Source: a virus
Strand: one strand, 5' to 3'
Virus record (IMG/VR): IMGVR_UViG_3300023179_000144
Location: 1-52,834 of that record
DNA length: 52,834 nucleotides
Part shown: one piece after another, positions 6,152-27,431 of the stretch
Layout of the letters: every line of letters begins with the position of its first letter
Numbering within the stretch: position 1 is the stretch's first letter
Made by a program: the position numbers and the translations under genes
Notes under the pieces: generated by a model
Databases searched by the model: none
What the model saw: only the letters and a program-made list of their open reading frames with translations
What the model was told of the DNA's origin: nothing

Positions 6152-7439
6152 CACATCTTCTCGATTGGCAAAAGAGCAGATCCTAAGAGAGCATTCTGAT
6201 AATGATCTTCTGAAGCGAGTAATCAAGCTCGCTTTAGATCCATTCACTCAATTTTACATTCGCAAAATCCCAAGTTACCAGGACAAGCCAGTCGCTAAGA
6301 TTTCGCTTGGGTTTGCTCTTGGTGAATTGAGAGCGCTTTCTTCGAGGGAAGTAACAGGTAAAGCAGCAATTGAACATTTGAGAAGTTTACTGGAGAATAT
6401 GGATGCAGAAGACGCAATGGTTATCGAACGAGTTATCGAAAAAGACCTTAAGTGTGGAGTCAGCGACGCAACCGTCAACAAAATCTGGCCTGAGTTCATT
6501 GCAACGTACCCCGTCATGCTGGCTTCTGGGTATGAGGACAAACTCATTTCCAAGTTCAACTGGCCAGGCTATGTCCAACTCAAATTGGACGGCATGCGCT
6601 TTAACGCGATCGTCCGTGACGGAAAAGTAGAATTTAGAAGCCGTAACGGTAAGCAGCTTGAGATTGCATCAGATTTACTAGGCAAAGCATTTGTAGAACT
6701 TGCAAAGCAATATGGATATGATTATGTGTTTGATGGTGAGTTGCTTGTTGTTGATGAATTTAGTCATCCTCTAGACCGCAAGACTGGAAACGGTATACTA
6801 ACTAAATCAATCAAAGGAACACAATCTCAAGCAGAGGGATCATTAGTAAGAGCTACGTTGTGGGATGCCATTCCTGTCAATGCATTTCTACTAGGTAAAT
6901 ACGAAGTACCATATCAGACTCGTTTTAGTGAGTTGGTAAAAAATTATGATAAGTTTGGTAATAAATCTGCTCTTAAACATTTGATTAATATGGTAGATAC
7001 TGTCACAGTTGATAACCTCTACGAGGCACAGAAAGTTTTTGCAGATTACTTTAAAAGAGGCTTTGAAGGATCGATTCTCAAGGATAAAAATGGAATTTGG
7101 GAAGACAAGCGATCGAAAGGTCAAATCAAATTTAAAGGCGAACTTGAATGCGATCTTAAGATCGTAGGATGGGAAGAGGGTACGGGTAAGAATAGGGGGC
7201 GCCTTGGTAATTTAATTCTTGAATCAGAAGACGGCAAAATTCGAGCGGGGGTGGGTACTGGATTTACTGATGCTGACCGGGATTCGATTAAACCAGATGT
7301 CGTTGGTAAGATTGTCGCCATCAAATATAATGCAAGAATTCAAGATAAGCGAGGTAACGTAGAAAGTTTATTCTTGCCAGTGTTCGTAGAAATTAGAGAT
7401 GATAAGACTATTGCAGACTCTAGTATTGATATAAAATGA
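6111..7439 (+). CDS. 30: ATP-dependent DNA ligase (T4 gp30-like)
   Basis: Seals nicks between Okazaki fragments using ATP. 442 residues (T4 gp30 487). The N-terminal helical domain (residues 5-140; NDLLKRVIKLALDPF, GKAAIEHL, VIERVIEKDLKCGVS) aligns with T4 ligase. The adenylated lysine is K158 in motif I QLKLDGMR; motif III is VFDGELLV, motif IV FEGSILK, and motif V GQIKFKGELECDLKIVGW. The true start may be the second ATG at 6117 (MSIYQIIQLLDN), which aligns better with T4. The stop overlaps the next ATG. Confidence 0.93.
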   Translation: MIMSIYQIIQLLDNTSSRLAKEQILREHSDNDLLKRVIKLALDPFTQFYIRKIPSYQDKPVAKISLGFALGELRALSSREVTGKAAIEHLRSLLENMDAEDAMVIERVIEKDLKCGVSDATVNKIWPEFIATYPVMLASGYEDKLISKFNWPGYVQLKLDGMRFNAIVRDGKVEFRSRNGKQLEIASDLLGKAFVELAKQYGYDYVFDGELLVVDEFSHPLDRKTGNGILTKSIKGTQSQAEGSLVRATLWDAIPVNAFLLGKYEVPYQTRFSELVKNYDKFGNKSALKHLINMVDTVTVDNLYEAQKVFADYFKRGFEGSILKDKNGIWEDKRSKGQIKFKGELECDLKIVGWEEGTGKNRGRLGNLILESEDGKIRAGVGTGFTDADRDSIKPDVVGKIVAIKYNARIQDKRGNVESLFLPVFVEIRDDKTIADSSIDIK

Positions 7440-8215
7440 AACATAAATTTTTTGGTATAGCGGGTCTTCCAAGAACAGGATCTACTCTTCTTTCATGTAT
7501 ATTAAATCAAAATCCAACTGTTCATTGTGAGGGTAGTTCTTCACTTGGTACGATCATGTTTCATAATTATGGTCTACTTCAAGATTCGATGGTCAATTTA
7601 TCAAGAAAAAGAGATCTAATTGAAAGCCTGTTAGCTCAGCTTCCAGAAGTATATTACTCAGGAATTAAAAAGCCCATCATATTCGATAAAAATAGATCAT
7701 GGTCTATGGGAATCAATTATAGTATGTTTAAGAGTTATCTTAATCCTGAAGGTAAGATCATTGTTCTTTATAGAGATGTTGTTGAGATTTTAAAGTCATT
7801 TACGTTTATTGCAAAGGAAGCAGGATGGGAAGACAAAAGAATTTGGGCTTTATTGGAATCAATGGTAGACATCACTAATGGGCACATATTTTTAGACTTA
7901 AGTGGAATTGTCTATAATAAAACTAATAATATATCTAATACACTATACATAAGTTATAATGATATGGTGCATAATATGAGGGATACTATTAAGGAAATAT
8001 ACAATTTTTGTGATTTACCTTATTTCGATCATGATTTTGAAAATATTGTTAATGAATTTCCTGAGGACGATGAAAACTTTGGAATTGTGGGTCAACATGA
8101 TGTTAGGCGTAACATTTCTCAAAGAATCACAAATAATGTAATATTACCTGGCAGATTACATGAAATTGCTCTTATGTTTAATCAACAACTAAACTCATTA
8201 GGATTGTTAGTATGA
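7436..8215 (+). CDS. Sulfotransferase family protein
   Basis: Predicted to transfer sulfate from PAPS to an unknown acceptor. The 5'-phosphosulfate-binding loop is at residues 10-17 (GLPRTGST), and a 3'-phosphate motif is at about 112-122 (YRDVVEILKSF), the two signatures of PAPS sulfotransferases. 259 residues is usual for a single domain. It is coupled to ligase (ATGA) and to the next gene. Sulfotransferases occur in several marine T4-like phages; the substrate could be a host surface glycan or a small metabolite. Confidence 0.8.
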   Translation: MKHKFFGIAGLPRTGSTLLSCILNQNPTVHCEGSSSLGTIMFHNYGLLQDSMVNLSRKRDLIESLLAQLPEVYYSGIKKPIIFDKNRSWSMGINYSMFKSYLNPEGKIIVLYRDVVEILKSFTFIAKEAGWEDKRIWALLESMVDITNGHIFLDLSGIVYNKTNNISNTLYISYNDMVHNMRDTIKEIYNFCDLPYFDHDFENIVNEFPEDDENFGIVGQHDVRRNISQRITNNVILPGRLHEIALMFNQQLNSLGLLV

Positions 8216-13447: not shown

Positions 13448-14197
13448 ATGGCAAAAAAACAACAACATTTACAATTACAAGACTCTACACCTAAAATGAC
13501 TTTATCTTCAAATAAATTAAAGTTACGTTTAGATGATATGGAGGTAATTGAGCCATTAACAGATAACCAAAGGAGAGTATTTGATGAGTATGATCATGCA
13601 AACATTATGTTGTTGCATGGGGTGGCTGGAACAGGAAAAACGTTTATAGCATTGTATCATGCATTAGAGGAGGTGCTTGATCGATCTAATCCATATGAAA
13701 AAGTAGTTATTGTAAGGTCTGCTGTTCCTTCAAGGGATATCGGTCATTTACCGGGTGATGAAAAAGAAAAGACCGAAGTTTATACAGAACCTTATGTAGA
13801 AATTTGCAAATCCCTTTTTGGTAGATCGGACGCTTATCAACGACTTAATGAACAAGGTGTAATTCAATTTTTAGTTACCTCTTTTGTTCGTGGTATTACA
13901 TTGGATGATTGTATTATTATAGTAGACGAATGTCAAAATATGACGGATATGGAGCTTAATTCAATTATTACTAGAGTCGGAGAAAGATCAAAAATTATAT
14001 TTTGTGGTGATTTTAGACAGACAGATCTCTACAAGAAATCTGATTTATCAGGACTTAAAAAGTTTATCGTTATTGCCGACATGATGCCTTCTTTTAAAGT
14101 ATTTGAGTTTGGAATAGAGGATATAGTTAGATCTAGTATTGTTAAGGAATATATAATAGCAAGAATGGCTTACGAAGAAAGATATGGTGGAAATTAG
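13448..14197 (+). CDS. phoH: PhoH-like ATPase
   Basis: 249 residues with Walker A GVAGTGKT (58-65) and Walker B IIIVDE (156-161), followed by QNMTDMELNSIITRVG and FCGDFRQTD, the typical PhoH C-terminal motifs. PhoH belongs to the P-loop NTPases linked to RNA metabolism and, in some bacteria, the phosphate-starvation response; it is one of the commonest auxiliary genes in marine phages. Its exact role in infection is unresolved. The gene is isolated between two terminators, so it is probably an independent unit. Confidence 0.92.
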   Translation: MAKKQQHLQLQDSTPKMTLSSNKLKLRLDDMEVIEPLTDNQRRVFDEYDHANIMLLHGVAGTGKTFIALYHALEEVLDRSNPYEKVVIVRSAVPSRDIGHLPGDEKEKTEVYTEPYVEICKSLFGRSDAYQRLNEQGVIQFLVTSFVRGITLDDCIIIVDECQNMTDMELNSIITRVGERSKIIFCGDFRQTDLYKKSDLSGLKKFIVIADMMPSFKVFEFGIEDIVRSSIVKEYIIARMAYEERYGGN

Positions 14198-14335: not shown

Positions 14336-14392
14336 ATGTACAAGTATAAATTATGGTGTAGGCAATATTTTCAACTATATAGGGTAGAATAA
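14336..14392 (+). CDS. Possible 18-residue coupled leader peptide
   Basis: ATG 14336 to TAA 14390-14392, where the stop shares a base with the ATG of the A-type carrier gene (TAATG). The peptide is [18 protein letters not shown]. Translation would bring ribosomes to the next start. The weak ribosome site makes this tentative. Confidence 0.3.
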
Positions 14393-14712
14393 TGCTCACA
14401 GTTACAGATAAAGCGTTTAATCAAATACGACAAGTTCAACTAGAAGAAAATGAAACTTCTCCTTTAAGAGTTTTCATTCAGGGTGGAGGTTGTTCGGGAT
14501 TTCAGTATGGCTTTACGTTTGATGAAAAACAAGGTGATGATGATTTCGTATTAGAGAAAGATGGGATAAAATTATTAGTTGATGCCATGTCCATGTCTTA
14601 TCTGGATGGAGCCGAAATAGATTATAAAAAAGATATAGCATCTGCACAGTTTGTAATTAAAAATCCTAACGCTACAACTACTTGTGGTTGTGGCTCATCT
14701 TTCGCGGCATAA
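14392..14712 (+). CDS. A-type iron-sulfur cluster carrier (IscA/ErpA/HesB family)
   Basis: Carries Fe-S clusters from scaffold to apo-enzymes. 106 residues, the normal family length, with the three ligand cysteines C34 ([11 protein letters not shown]), C98 and C100 (TTCGCGSSF at the C-terminus). The family signature is intact, so it should be functional. It lies directly upstream of iscU and the two probably form one transcript. HesB-like genes are known auxiliary genes in T4-like marine phages. I cannot separate IscA from ErpA by eye. Confidence 0.92.
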
Positions 14713-14714
14713 AA

Positions 14715-15110
14715 ATGTCTTACTCTTCTCAAGTATTAGATCACTACGAAAATCCTCGTAACGTTGGCTCTTTTGCTAAAGAAGTGAAAAGAATAGGTAC
14801 CGGCATGGTTGGAGCACCTGCCTGCGGAGATGTAATGAAGTTACAGATACAAGTAAACGAAGAGGGTGTTATCACAGATGCGAAATTCAAAACGTATGGC
14901 TGCGGCTCAGCGATCGCAAGTTCATCACTCGTTACGGAATGGGTCAAGGGTAAGACGCTGGATGAGGCGGGATCTCTTAAGAATACTCAAATCGCCGAAC
15001 ATCTTGCACTCCCCCCAGTTAAAATACATTGCTCAATTCTTGCTGAAGACGCGATCAAGGCTGCTATAAAAGACTTCAGAGATAGGTATGAAAACATTCA
15101 ATCAAATTAG
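14715..15110 (+). CDS. iscU: IscU iron-sulfur cluster scaffold
   Basis: Scaffold on which IscS sulfur and iron form [2Fe-2S] clusters. The start at 14715 gives 131 residues (E. coli 128) and the normal beginning MSYSSQVLDHYENPRN. All active residues are present: C37 and D39 (PACGDV), C63 (YGCGSA), H105 and C106 (KIHCS). The HscA-binding motif LPPVK (99-103) is intact. The sequence is very close to proteobacterial IscU. A 60-base sample (14881-14940) has 29 G/C, against 21 at 15301-15360, suggesting recent acquisition. No iscS, hscA or fdx is present here. Confidence 0.95.
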   Translation: MSYSSQVLDHYENPRNVGSFAKEVKRIGTGMVGAPACGDVMKLQIQVNEEGVITDAKFKTYGCGSAIASSSLVTEWVKGKTLDEAGSLKNTQIAEHLALPPVKIHCSILAEDAIKAAIKDFRDRYENIQSN

Positions 15111-16170: not shown

Positions 16171-16827
16171 ATGAAAACATTTCGCCATGTACCAGTTGAT
16201 CTACCTTTAATAAAGCAAGTCAATCTAGAAAATAAACGTTTATATGAAACATCTATGGGAAACAAATACCCATCGATTACTACAGTGTTGTCTGAATATA
16301 ATAAACATGTTATAATGGAATGGCGTAAAAGGGTAGGGGCCGATAATGCAAATAGTATAGCTGCAGCTGCCTCGAGGCGTGGCACTAAGGTCCATTCTAT
16401 TATTGAGGCTTATCTTAAAAACGATGATGCACCGATAGAAGATAAGTTAGATCTCGATAGATTTTTTTCTTTGGAACCTTTCTTAGACTGCATTGATAAT
16501 ATACATGTTCAAGAGAAAGGTTTATATTCCGATCACCTAAGGATAGCTGGAACAGTAGACTGTATTGCTGAGTATAATGGTAAGTTATCTGTTATTGATT
16601 TTAAGACATCTTCTAAACCAAAGAAGAAAGAATGGATTGATAATTACTTTATGCAATGTGCAGCATATGCAATCATGTACGAAGAAAGAACCGGTACTCC
16701 AATCAATAGGCTAGTTATTATGATTTCTGTTGAGCAGGACGCACCGCAAATATTTTTAGAGAAAAGAGATAATTGGGTCAAGCAACTTTTACATTATAGA
16801 GATTTGTATGAAAGAAAAAAGACGTAA
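16171..16827 (+). CDS. PD-(D/E)XK exonuclease (RecB/Cas4-like fold)
   Basis: 218 residues. Metal-site residues: D130 (AGTVDCI), then D143 and K145 (VIDFKTSS), and Q162 in MQCAAYA, the order of the RecB-nuclease family; an upstream helix RRGTKVHSIIEAYL (69-82) carries the family H and E. T4-like marine phages often carry such a nuclease. Its job may be recombination or host DNA breakdown (inference). It overlaps the start of the halogenase gene by 20 bases. Confidence 0.85.
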   Translation: MKTFRHVPVDLPLIKQVNLENKRLYETSMGNKYPSITTVLSEYNKHVIMEWRKRVGADNANSIAAAASRRGTKVHSIIEAYLKNDDAPIEDKLDLDRFFSLEPFLDCIDNIHVQEKGLYSDHLRIAGTVDCIAEYNGKLSVIDFKTSSKPKKKEWIDNYFMQCAAYAIMYEERTGTPINRLVIMISVEQDAPQIFLEKRDNWVKQLLHYRDLYERKKT

Positions 16828-17950
16828 AAAATTAGCTGTAATTGGAAGAGGCACTGCTGGTTGTCTATCAATTGCTCATTTTCAAAGATGGTCTGATTTT
16901 GATATAGAGTGGTATTTTGATCCAAACATTAAACCTCAAGCAGTTGGAGAAGGTTCTACTGCTTCTCTTCCTTATAACCTTTTTGATTATTTAAATTTTA
17001 CCATTGTCGACTTAGAAAAAATACATGGCACACTTAAAGGCGGAATAAAAAAGACAAATTGGGGATATAAAGATTATATACACCCTTTTCCTGGCAATGT
17101 TCATGGATATCATTTCAATGCTGTAAAATTGCAAGAGATGATCATTGATAAATTAAGCAATCATCCAAGAATAAAAATAACAGAGAAAAACGTTAGTGAT
17201 GATTCTATAGATAGTGATTTCGTAATGAATTGCATGGGTGCACCCAAAGAAAAAGATGAACGATTCATATACAGCAACCACATTCCTGTCAACTCAGCCT
17301 ACGTTACTCAATGTTATTGGGAAGGTGTAAAATTTGAATATACACTGACTATAGCAAGACCATATGGCTGGGTATTTGGTATTCCTCTTCTTAACAGATG
17401 TAGTATTGGTTACATGTTTAACAGCAGTATTAATAGTTTAGAAGAAGTAAAAGAAGATGTAAAAAATGTTTTTAAAGAATACGGATTGACGCCTAGTCAA
17501 GATACTAATCATTTAAAATTTAAAAATTATTATCGTAATCAAAATTGTACTGGAAGAGTTGTTTATAATGGTAATGCTAGTTTTTTCTTGGAGCCATTGG
17601 AGGCAACCAGCTTAGCATTTGTAAATCATATTAACAGAAATGCTTTTGACCATTGGTATGATAAGACATCTGTTGAAACCGTTAACACAAAATACAACGA
17701 TTTAATAAGTCAAATAGAATCAGTAATAATGTTACACTATGCAGCTGGTTCTAAATTTGATACAGAATTTTGGAAATTTGCAAAGGCTAGAGGGCTAGAA
17801 AACTTTTTAAGGTTTATTAATACAGATACATTTTTAAAGATAAGGCAAAGCATACTTTTAAATGAACCTGAAATAGGTACATGGCCGCCTTATTCTTGGG
17901 AAGTTAATTTACATAATTTAGGTTTAATGAAATACCTATCAGCAAAATAG
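16808..17950 (+). CDS. Flavin-dependent (tryptophan-type) halogenase
   Basis: Predicted FAD enzyme that chlorinates or brominates an aromatic or other substrate using reduced flavin. 380 residues, shorter than bacterial PrnA-type enzymes (about 510-530). FAD site: VIGRGTAGCLS (11-21); VGEGSTASLP (46-55) matches the GEAT motif region. K77 (GTLKGGIKKTNWG) lines up with the lysine essential for hypohalous-acid transfer. The WxWxIP signature is WVFGIP (188-193), with Phe for the second Trp. T4-like marine phages carry similar genes. Substrate unknown; activity not certain. Confidence 0.8.
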   Translation: MKEKRRKKLAVIGRGTAGCLSIAHFQRWSDFDIEWYFDPNIKPQAVGEGSTASLPYNLFDYLNFTIVDLEKIHGTLKGGIKKTNWGYKDYIHPFPGNVHGYHFNAVKLQEMIIDKLSNHPRIKITEKNVSDDSIDSDFVMNCMGAPKEKDERFIYSNHIPVNSAYVTQCYWEGVKFEYTLTIARPYGWVFGIPLLNRCSIGYMFNSSINSLEEVKEDVKNVFKEYGLTPSQDTNHLKFKNYYRNQNCTGRVVYNGNASFFLEPLEATSLAFVNHINRNAFDHWYDKTSVETVNTKYNDLISQIESVIMLHYAAGSKFDTEFWKFAKARGLENFLRFINTDTFLKIRQSILLNEPEIGTWPPYSWEVNLHNLGLMKYLSAK

Positions 17951-17951
17951 A

Positions 17952-17959
17952 TATAAATA
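17952..17959 (+). promoter_or_regulatory. T4-type late promoter TATAAATA upstream of the tmRNA
   Basis: An exact late consensus two bases after the halogenase stop. The expected start is near 17965, just before the tmRNA acceptor piece. An inverted repeat ATACAA/TTGTAT overlaps it (17957-17974). This suggests the tmRNA is made late, with virion genes. Confidence 0.6.
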
Positions 17960-17970
17960 CAATTATAGTT

Positions 17971-18214
17971 GTATGAAGCAAGCAGAAAAGTGCTGCGGAC
18001 GCCGGGGCAGTACCGGCCAGGTCCACCAAAAATACATTCGGAACACGATACTTGATTATTTTTGATGGGCCTGAACAAGTTTCGACGGGGCAAATAGTAA
18101 GTAAGTGGACAACTCGTTAGGCGAAGGACGTAATCCTAGCAAAAGCAAATAGACGCAAACGACGACTATTTTTATCAGGACCTTAAGCTAGCCGCTTAAA
18201 CCTGACGGGGTATT
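17971..18214 (+). ncRNA. ssrA: Circularly permuted (two-piece) tmRNA
   Basis: tmRNA rescues stalled ribosomes and tags the nascent chain for proteolysis. The acceptor part comes first: T-arm stem GCCGG/CCGGC (18001-18005, 18013-18017) with loop GGCAGTA, then CAGGTCC (18018-18024), A, and CCA at 18026-18028. After 38 bases comes the 5' part: GGGCCTG (18067-18073), which pairs with CAGGTCC over seven pairs, with G-U at pair three, the alanine identity signal. AAGTTTCGACGGGG follows. The resume codon GCA is at 18155, and the tag is ANDDYFYQDLKLAA with stop at 18197-18199, ending in the LAA degron. The outer 5' boundary is approximate. Confidence 0.92.
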
Positions 18215-18256
18215 GGCAGTTCACCTTGTTACCCAAAGAACTGCCTTTTTATTTTT
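18215..18256 (+). terminator. Terminator of the tmRNA transcript
   Basis: GGCAGTTC (18215-18222) pairs with GAACTGCC (18238-18245) around a 15-base loop, followed by TTTTTATTTTT. It ends the tmRNA precursor before the gene at 18282. Confidence 0.85.
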
Positions 18257-18281: not shown

Positions 18282-18548
18282 ATGAGTAATATGACACCAT
18301 TCGAAATTCGTTTAGAGTTATTAAAGTTGTCGAAAGACATGCTTAGTGAGGATTATTTTGCTAAGCGTTCAGTATCAGAAAACAACTGGCAAACCGCTTG
18401 TGAAAATGCAAGACAGCGCGGCGAACCTCTACCCCTCCAACCAGATCTTCCAGCCTATCCTCATGAAGAAGATGTTATAAAAAAGGCAAATATGCTTAAT
18501 GGATTTGTTTCACAAATCCCATCGGCTGAAAAACCAATTAGGCAGTAA
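18282..18548 (+). CDS. Conserved hypothetical phage protein, 88 aa
   Basis: ATG at 18282 after AAAGGAGAAG, an excellent ribosome site. The sequence (MTPFEIRLELLKLSKDMLSEDYFAKR, then YPHEEDVIKKANMLNGFVSQ) is a type I recall from T4-like marine phages without a known function. It stands alone between the tmRNA terminator and a perfect hairpin at 18551. Confidence 0.65.
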   Translation: MSNMTPFEIRLELLKLSKDMLSEDYFAKRSVSENNWQTACENARQRGEPLPLQPDLPAYPHEEDVIKKANMLNGFVSQIPSAEKPIRQ

Positions 18549-18550
18549 AA

Positions 18551-18572
18551 AACAGGGGGTATACCCCCTGTT
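18551..18572 (+). terminator. Perfect palindrome hairpin, probable terminator
   Basis: A 22-base palindrome: nine pairs with core CAGGGGG/CCCCCTG around a TATA loop. It lies a few bases after the stop of the gene at 18548. No long T-run follows, so termination strength is uncertain. Confidence 0.55.
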
Positions 18573-19111: not shown

Positions 19112-19447
19112 ATGAAACAAAACGCAAAAATGAACTTTAAAATCCCTTCCCTAGATTTACAAAAAATTATTGAGTATTGTAAAACTAATCTTACCCATGC
19201 AACAGCGGAAACCATTTCCTGGGTCGGTGTAATGCTAATTCATGCAGCTACTGTCCCAACCATGATTGCATTAATGACGGGTCTATCTGATAAGACACCA
19301 CCCATTGAATTAGTTTTAATTATTTGGGGTGGACTAGCTTTGTTCTATGTTAGAGCAGCAATACTAAAGGATATGCTTAATGTAATTACAATAGGTTTTG
19401 GCTTTTTAATTCATGCTGTAATGTTAGCATTGGTAATGTTTAAATGA
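19112..19447 (+). CDS. Small membrane protein, about three helices
   Basis: 111 residues with hydrophobic segments near 37-57 (ISWVGVMLIHAATVPTMIALM), 67-84 (IELVLIIWGGLALFYVRA) and 90-110 (VITIGFGFLIHAVMLALVMF). It follows the SleB-type hydrolase by two bases and overlaps gp33. Could be a holin or antiholin-like protein by size and context, or a T4-like protein of unknown role. An alternative start is Met7 at 19130. Confidence 0.6.
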   Translation: MKQNAKMNFKIPSLDLQKIIEYCKTNLTHATAETISWVGVMLIHAATVPTMIALMTGLSDKTPPIELVLIIWGGLALFYVRAAILKDMLNVITIGFGFLIHAVMLALVMFK

Positions 19448-19704
19448 ATGATATAAAAGATTTAACTGATGGATTAGTAATTACTAAAAGATTTAGATCA
19501 TCCAATGAATTTTCTATTCACATAGAAGAACAAGTAAGGTCACTTAATATTAGTTATATGGAAGCTATTATTACTTATTGCAATGAACAAGACATTGATG
19601 TAGAAAGAATAGCTGGATTGATTAGTTCTTCTTTAAAAGATAAAATCCAACTTGAAGCTGAAGAATTAAATATGATAAAGAGAGGTGGTAGGTTACCCTT
19701 ATGA
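19444..19704 (+). CDS. 33: Late-transcription co-activator gp33-like
   Basis: gp33 links the gp45 sliding clamp and RNA polymerase for late transcription. 86 residues (T4 112). The pattern FSIHIEEQVRSLNISYMEAIITYCNEQDIDVERIAGLISSSLKDKIQ with EAEELNMIKRG matches my memory of gp33 of T4-like marine phages. Its place right before gp59 and gp32 fits T4 order (33-59-32). It overlaps both neighbours by ATGA-type junctions. Confidence 0.7.
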   Translation: MNDIKDLTDGLVITKRFRSSNEFSIHIEEQVRSLNISYMEAIITYCNEQDIDVERIAGLISSSLKDKIQLEAEELNMIKRGGRLPL

Positions 19705-20279
19705 TTATGACAGAATTTGAAGTGTATCGGTTTTACTTGGCATTAAAATTACATTTTACAACAGACAAATATGATGTTATTAAACAAAAAGGTAGAGTAA
19801 GAGCAAAGCGTGCGGCATTTGCAAAACGCAATGATTTAATTTCTATTAAGAAAATTGCAAAGAATTATTCGGATGAAGAGGTAGTAAATTTTTTGGTTGC
19901 AAACTTTGTATCCGGCGACAGATGGGGTGGAATATTTGATACCGAAGCAAATGAAAGATATCTTTCATGGAAAAAAAGAATTGAGGGTTTAACGTATACA
20001 TTTACTGAAGATATCAATAAATTATTTTCAAATAACATCAATCCTTTTAGTTGCTCGAAAGAAGAACATTCCTATATAATAAAACAATACTTAAGAAATA
20101 ATGTTTCTATAGAAACATTAGTTGTCATAGATTCATTTAGATCATTTGTAGATGAATATGATCAAATATATAAAGAAGATATAGTTTGGCCAGATATTTC
20201 AAGAATTATTAAAAAGTATAAACCGTTTCTAAAATTTAATAAAGAAAAACTCTATGCAATCTATAGAACAAGATCTTAA
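19701..20279 (+). CDS. 59: Replicative helicase loader gp59
   Basis: gp59 loads helicase gp41 on forks covered by gp32. 192 residues (T4 217). Alignable features: YRFYLALKLHFTTDKYDVIKQKGRVR near the N-terminus (T4 has YKLYLMIKQHMNGKYDVIKY), AKRNDLISIKKIAKNY, LVANFVSGDRWGG, and SIETLVVIDSFRSFVDEYDQ with W before the C-terminal KIIKKYK segment. It lies two small genes upstream of gp32, its partner. ATG at 19701 or 19707 could be the start. Confidence 0.88.
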   Translation: MIMTEFEVYRFYLALKLHFTTDKYDVIKQKGRVRAKRAAFAKRNDLISIKKIAKNYSDEEVVNFLVANFVSGDRWGGIFDTEANERYLSWKKRIEGLTYTFTEDINKLFSNNINPFSCSKEEHSYIIKQYLRNNVSIETLVVIDSFRSFVDEYDQIYKEDIVWPDISRIIKKYKPFLKFNKEKLYAIYRTRS

Positions 20280-27389: not shown

Positions 27390-27431
27390 TATAAATATTC
27401 TCATTACTCTAATACTTACTATTTATAAATA
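27390..27431. promoter_or_regulatory. Divergent late promoters sharing a palindrome
   Basis: Plus strand TATAAATA occurs at 27390-27397 and 27424-27431; minus strand TATAAATA at 27427-27420. The last two overlap by four bases within the perfect palindrome CTATTTATAAATAG (27419-27432). The plus copies can serve gp48 and the baseplate operon; the minus copy serves gp4 and the minus-strand tail genes. Confidence 0.65.

Follow-up and report, generated by a model that had tools for sequence, protein, structure and literature searches.

The sequence analyzed here (the window) comprises all 52,834 bases of a virus record in IMG/VR and represents a genome fragment. Its T4-like genes include those for a gp32-type single-strand DNA binding protein, DNA ligase and RNase H, as well as baseplate, tail and head-closure proteins. 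Rfam covariance models and ARAGORN identify positions 17967-18245 (+) as a complete circularly permuted tmRNA gene, which fills the gap between the end of a halogenase-like gene (17950) and the start of the next ORF (18282). Its order is that of a permuted gene: the acceptor half comes first, followed by an intervening segment and then by the coding half. The features of the locus, with the basis for each assignment where it matters, and two genes downstream of it are as follows:

17952-17959 (+), TATAAATA, candidate T4-type late promoter octamer (motif scan, placement)
17967-18028 (+), acceptor piece (read on the sequence, RF04321/RF01850, covariation)
17967-17971 and 17991-17997 (+), P2 strand of the acceptor piece
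18001-18017 (+), T arm with the loop GGCAGTA
18018-18024 (+), acceptor strand CAGGTCC
18025 (+), A73
18026-18028 (+), CCA
18029-18066 (+), intervening segment, 38 nt (covarying helix, predicted fold)
18067-18114 (+), 5' end of the coding piece (RF models, loop comparison, covariation)
18067-18073 (+), acceptor strand GGGCCTG, with G1 at 18067
18076-18086 (+), D-loop motif CAAGTTTCGAC, with A18 at 18078
18086-18092 and 18110-18114 (+), P2 strands of the coding piece
18115-18137 (+), proposed pseudoknot 1
18115-18118 with 18127-18130 (+), first helix of pseudoknot 1, CGTT with GACG (in the RF01850 alignment)
18119-18121 with 18135-18137 (+), candidate second helix of pseudoknot 1, AGG with CCT (read from the sequence)
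18155-18199 (+), tag frame ANDDYFYQDLKLAA with stop TAA (sequence, ARAGORN, relatives)
18175-18205 (+), hairpin around the tag end, TCAGG 18175-18179 with CCTGA 18201-18205 (predicted fold)
18208-18245 (+), 3' pseudoknot
18215-18222 with 18238-18245 (+), hairpin of the 3' pseudoknot, GGCAGTTC with GAACTGCC (in the RF01850 alignment)
18208-18212 with 18230-18234 (+), crossing helix of the 3' pseudoknot, GGGTA with TACCC (read from the sequence)
18246-18256 (+), T-rich run TTTTTATTTTT 3' of the hairpin, possible terminator (read from the sequence)
19444-19704 (+), gp33 late-transcription coactivator (PF16805)
19701-20279, gp59

The permuted-tmRNA model (RF04321, tmRNA_permuted) matched 17967-18199 over its full length (model positions 1-213) with 127.7 bits and an E value of 1e-24, the gathering score being 47. 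The beta_tmRNA model (RF01850) gave 89.2 bits at 17914-18251, which is near its gathering score of 84; typical bacterial beta-type genes reach far higher scores against this model (251.5 bits). ARAGORN called one permuted tmRNA in the window, with the tag ANDDYFYQDLKLAA. These scores bear out a first-pass annotation, made from the letters alone, that had proposed a permuted tmRNA at this locus and a covariance-model search as the check. Its finer coordinates also hold (CCA at 18026-18028, coding half from 18067, tag at 18155-18199, a spacer of 38 nt), as does the pairing of the two ends that it described: GGGCCTG at 18067-18073 and CAGGTCC at 18018-18024 form seven pairs, the third of which is the alanine identity pair G3-U70 (18069/18022). 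The span that it gave, 17971-18214, points to the right locus but falls a little short on either side, since the acceptor half begins near 17967 and the 3' pseudoknot lies largely beyond 18214. The T loop, GGCAGTA instead of TTCRANN, was absent from that description. A terminator scan with a loop limit of 8 made no call at the T-rich run that follows the gene, and among the relatives a run resembling it is found only in L043.

Comparative evidence for the structure came from an alignment of 16 related sequences in which the middle of the intervening segment was left out. The 33 base pairs considered are 96.4% kept across these sequences, and 14 of them show two-sided changes; none of 500 shuffles attained this, and sliding the pairing partners brought pairing down to 35-51%. 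The G3-U70 pair is invariant (16/16), the hairpin of the 3' pseudoknot is kept by a two-sided change in relatives with GGTAGTTC/GAACTACC, and the letters of the hairpin around the tag end are identical in most relatives. Both covariation and the predicted fold indicate that the arms of the intervening segment (18029-18034 and 18057-18062) pair with each other and lengthen the acceptor stem. Because the predicted precursor fold is only moderately better than those of shuffles (z -2.45), we place the weight on the comparative evidence. The covariation counts argue against the view that the gene is a decaying, host-derived passenger with no function, which we consider very improbable. The helix in the intervening segment was also considered as a phage-specific trait, an idea that was rejected because a bacterial gene from Thauera (L140) has the same helix.

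The T loop, unusual at first sight, would speak for such a passenger, but its form is matched by its partner in the D loop. Position 55 of the T loop is coupled to position 18 of the D loop across phage and bacterial genes: T55 occurs with G18 in 27 genes from phages and 13 from bacteria, and G55 occurs with A18 in nine of nine genes, while the single remaining count in the tally (L113) is a false script site and not a tmRNA. The window gene does not have the beta-type combination of a TTCRANT T loop with G18; it has GGCAGTA with A18. The same T loop is present on different T stems in L088, L004 and the phage Melnitz, and the alpha_tmRNA consensus is GGCgGUA with A18. Decay or sequencing error as the source of the odd T loop was rejected, since the alpha consensus and other genes share this form and the D-loop partner matches. 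Judged by its sequence, this coupling makes the window gene a beta-type body joined to an alpha-like loop pair (A18/G55) and not a plain beta gene; recombination would be the simplest origin. The A18/G55 coupling also speaks for a tertiary contact that connects the two RNA pieces, which would be processed separately.

Genes of Betaproteobacteria that match RF01850 (e.g., that of Thauera) share with the window gene the beta-type body, the CCUUGUUACC loop in the 3' pseudoknot and a hairpin in the intervening segment. However, these bacterial genes have T55/G18, tags of about 10 residues (e.g., ANDERFAVAA) and mostly no encoded CCA, whereas the window gene has G55/A18, a tag of 14 residues and an encoded CCA. 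Genes of Alphaproteobacteria (RF01849) share the T-loop type GGCgGUA with A18, but no RF01849 match was among those listed for the window, in output that hides overlapping hits of the same clan, and the body of the window gene resembles the beta type.

Relatives were gathered by a neighbor-protein search and a tag-pattern search, which led to related viral contigs. The tag pattern occurs in 34 stretches of viral DNA, and a version of it that is slightly shorter had no match in 84,980 bacterial and archaeal genomes. The same tag peptide is encoded by 26 of 27 distinct sequences, the remaining one being ANDDYFSQDFKLAA, although the search pattern is biased toward keeping the first 11 codons. The LAA end and the stop lie outside this pattern and are kept in all 27, with silent GCC/GCT and TAA/TGA changes. 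The tag is a peptide of 14 residues with a hydrophobic, degron-like LAA end. Both its constancy and the absence of the exact tag module from the searched bacterial and archaeal genomes tell against a decaying passenger; the fixed tag also offers a mass-spectrometry handle on phage-tagged proteins. A search for relatives based on the halogenase confirmed none, and at the DNA level nothing similar to the locus was found in isolated phages.

Two related genes, L043 and L044, carry the tag module and 3' pseudoknot of the window gene but have a different tRNA-like domain; they are without an encoded CCA, and only 7 nt separate the discriminator base from G1. As such sequences show, the permuted tmRNA gene is mosaic between relatives, apparently through an exchange of modules. 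Mosaicism of this kind is what a passenger might also show, and it is the other point in favor of that reading. ARAGORN misses the short-form genes in L043 and L044, and surveys that rely on this program may therefore undercount phage tmRNA genes. The short permuted form (about 7 nt between the halves, no encoded CCA) is located at 5419-5618 in L043 and 4824-5023 in L044, and it was also seen at 7378-7571 in L184 and 3797-3990 in L186. In L183 (2919-2989) and L185 (5410-5480), which are tRNA-rich viral contigs, the permuted-tmRNA match covers the tRNA-like part only (model positions 26-117), and the tag part is unmatched. Among genes with the same tag, the region of pseudoknot 1 has two interchangeable versions, one in L045, L046, L055 and L057 and the other in the window, L047, L050 and L059. 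Long intervening segments that contain small ORFs of about 32-61 aa, some of which include a hydrophobic stretch, were observed in L050, L072, L091, L073 and Melnitz (L135). An excess of such nested ORFs over shuffles, calculated for L050, L072, L091 and Melnitz, is clear only for Melnitz (0.002, uncorrected); five of the ORFs had no PHROGs match at 0.001, and two that were tried with tblastn had no match outside Melnitz itself. In bacteria, an RF04321 survey of 150 genomes from the order of a Burkholderiaceae MAG yielded 5 above the cut-off; filters were strict and 14 candidates were scored per genome, so we draw no frequency from it.

The baseplate wedge protein of the window has its best matches among isolates, at about 37% identity, in Melnitz (host OM43), Synechococcus phage BUCT-ZZ01, and the Pelagibacter phages HTVC008M and Mosig, and each of these four, the nearest isolates tested, carries a permuted tmRNA. 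The order tmRNA, gp33, gp59 is the same in Melnitz and in the window, and the tmRNA is also close to gp33 in HTVC008M and in the related contigs G001 and G007. The presence of the gene in the four nearest isolates, together with this shared neighborhood, makes it look like an old resident of this phage branch; the gp33-adjacent position likewise argues against a passenger.

The first-pass annotation had implied that a permuted tmRNA in a T4-like phage would be new. However, a two-piece tmRNA in the T4-like phage Melnitz was described in 2022 (Buchholz et al., PMC9004378), where 402 of 18,146 phages were reported to encode 133 unique tmRNAs, 53 of them two-piece and 50 of those marine or aquatic. 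The tmRNA database paper that introduced RF04321 lists 79 bacteriophage tmRNA sequences (PMC11915505). The window gene is therefore of a known kind; it is real and most likely functional, and it extends phage permuted tmRNA from published marine isolates to an uncultivated T4-like family with a beta-type gene. Melnitz (MZ577097.1), a T4-like phage of the Kyanoviridae, is similar to the window in several respects: both have a permuted gene with a tRNA-like domain, a T loop that reads GGCAGTA and is combined with A18, a tag of 14 residues with LAA at its end, and the same gene neighborhood. On the other hand, the gene of Melnitz is of the alpha type, whereas the window gene is above the beta-type cut-off; the Melnitz gene has a glutamine riboswitch behind it, the tag ANDNYVPVDYALAA and 142 nt after the CCA as opposed to 38 nt in the window. 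Phage-encoded tmRNA or tmRNA-like RNA is also known from the mycobacteriophage Bxz1 group and DS6A (PMC4131195), but the mycobacteriophage tmRNA genes are not reported as permuted in that paper, and DS6A has a tRNA-like domain only.

The octamer TATAAATA just upstream of the gene is a candidate T4-type late promoter; with the spacing of T4 late promoters, transcription would start near 17965. The octamer is not enriched in the window as such (6 copies versus 9.8 expected); only its placement is, as five of the six copies have the start of a gene or of the tmRNA no more than 60 nt downstream of them. Of the 16 sites of NATAAATA, 9 are so placed, compared with 0 of 56 sites of five control octamers (binomial about 4e-9). 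In 13 distinct uncultivated sequences and in Melnitz, NATAWATA ends 7-10 nt before the acceptor piece, a slot where the octamer would be expected at a rate of about 0.1%; the 13 sequences are related and thus are not independent events. The octamer is missing at that place in L042 and L084. In L074, a tRNA-like sequence (recognized by eye; its anticodon reads TGT) that ends in CCA lies directly upstream of the tmRNA and replaces the octamer. Of the marks of a T4-type late promoter and its transcription proteins, the window has the motif, its placement and a gp33 gene, and the sequences of this family predict late expression of the tmRNA. This is opposite to the early timing that was proposed for Melnitz. 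Also in the window, TATAAATA is found on both strands at 27390-27431, between divergent head-closure and baseplate genes, and this segment is likely a two-way late promoter, judging from the motif.

Alternatively, read-through or a host sigma factor could drive expression of a working phage tmRNA early in infection or during all of it, the octamer being only a -10 box; the roles of this tmRNA would be those suggested for Melnitz, namely, to recycle proteins of the host or to keep its hijacked machinery in operation. Melnitz does have a perfect TTGACA-17-TATAAA that overlaps the same octamer, and the paper on this phage proposes that its tmRNA is expressed early (PMC9004378); furthermore, TATAAT is found upstream of the tmRNA in L143, as is a tRNA in L074. 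In the window family, however, no -35 box was found with the octamer (2-4 of 6 matches, the best, 4/6, at an off spacing), in contrast to the perfect sigma-70 box of Melnitz, and octamers of the TATAAATA type mark the starts of structural genes elsewhere in the window. Early or continuous expression is thus unlikely in our judgment.

We consider it probable that the window carries a working phage ssrA gene that is expressed late and relies on the SmpB and processing enzymes of the host. Its processing, charging, timing, rescue and degradation may be pictured as follows. Transcription from the T4-type late promoter would begin almost exactly where the acceptor piece has its 5' end. The precursor would fold into a tRNA-like domain in which the 38-nt segment forms a hairpin that lengthens the acceptor stem. 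This segment would then be removed by host enzymes, RNase P cutting at G1 of the coding piece and 3' processing ending at the CCA, and leave two pieces joined by base pairing; such excision is plausible, and the idea of host processing, raised in the first-pass annotation, fits what has been described of the processing of permuted genes (PMC11915505). Host alanyl-tRNA synthetase could charge the molecule via G3-U70, and host SmpB, assumed to be compatible, and EF-Tu would deliver it. Late in infection, the RNA would rescue ribosomes that have stalled on broken messages, and the lineage-specific tag of 14 residues, ending in the LAA degron, would be added to their products. Searches of the window and of 16 related records found no gene for SmpB, and host SmpB is therefore assumed. 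An RNA that instead binds SmpB or ribosomes as an inhibitor or decoy and blocks host trans-translation has a precedent, as such an effect is reported for a tRNA-like molecule that lacks a tag and resembles the one in DS6A (PMC4131195, PMC11915505). Yet a decoy would need neither a full tag frame with a conserved LAA and stop nor pseudoknots, all of which are present in the window gene, and we regard this role as improbable.

Beyond the proposed working, late-expressed gene itself, a more tentative generalization, which is quite possible in our view, is that a T4-like phage lineage maintains its own tmRNA under late-only, phage-controlled transcription for late rescue with a phage-specific tag, the gene consisting of exchangeable modules while the tag stays fixed. 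The putative modules are the tRNA-like domain, in which the D and T loops are coupled, the two versions of pseudoknot 1 and an intervening segment of 7 to about 226 nt. For the late promoter, the tag family and the loop coupling in phages, no earlier report was found in literature coverage that mostly excludes subscription journals.

Several other features of the window were observed. A perfect 22-base inverted repeat, AACAGGGGGTATACCCCCTGTT, lies at 18551-18572, just 3' of the ORF at 18282-18548, and is terminator-like on the minus strand. Possible auxiliary genes at 7436-8215, 13448-14197 and 16808-17950 encode a sulfotransferase, a PhoH-like protein and a tryptophan halogenase, respectively, and two ORFs at 14392-15110 appear by eye to resemble iron-sulfur cluster assembly proteins.
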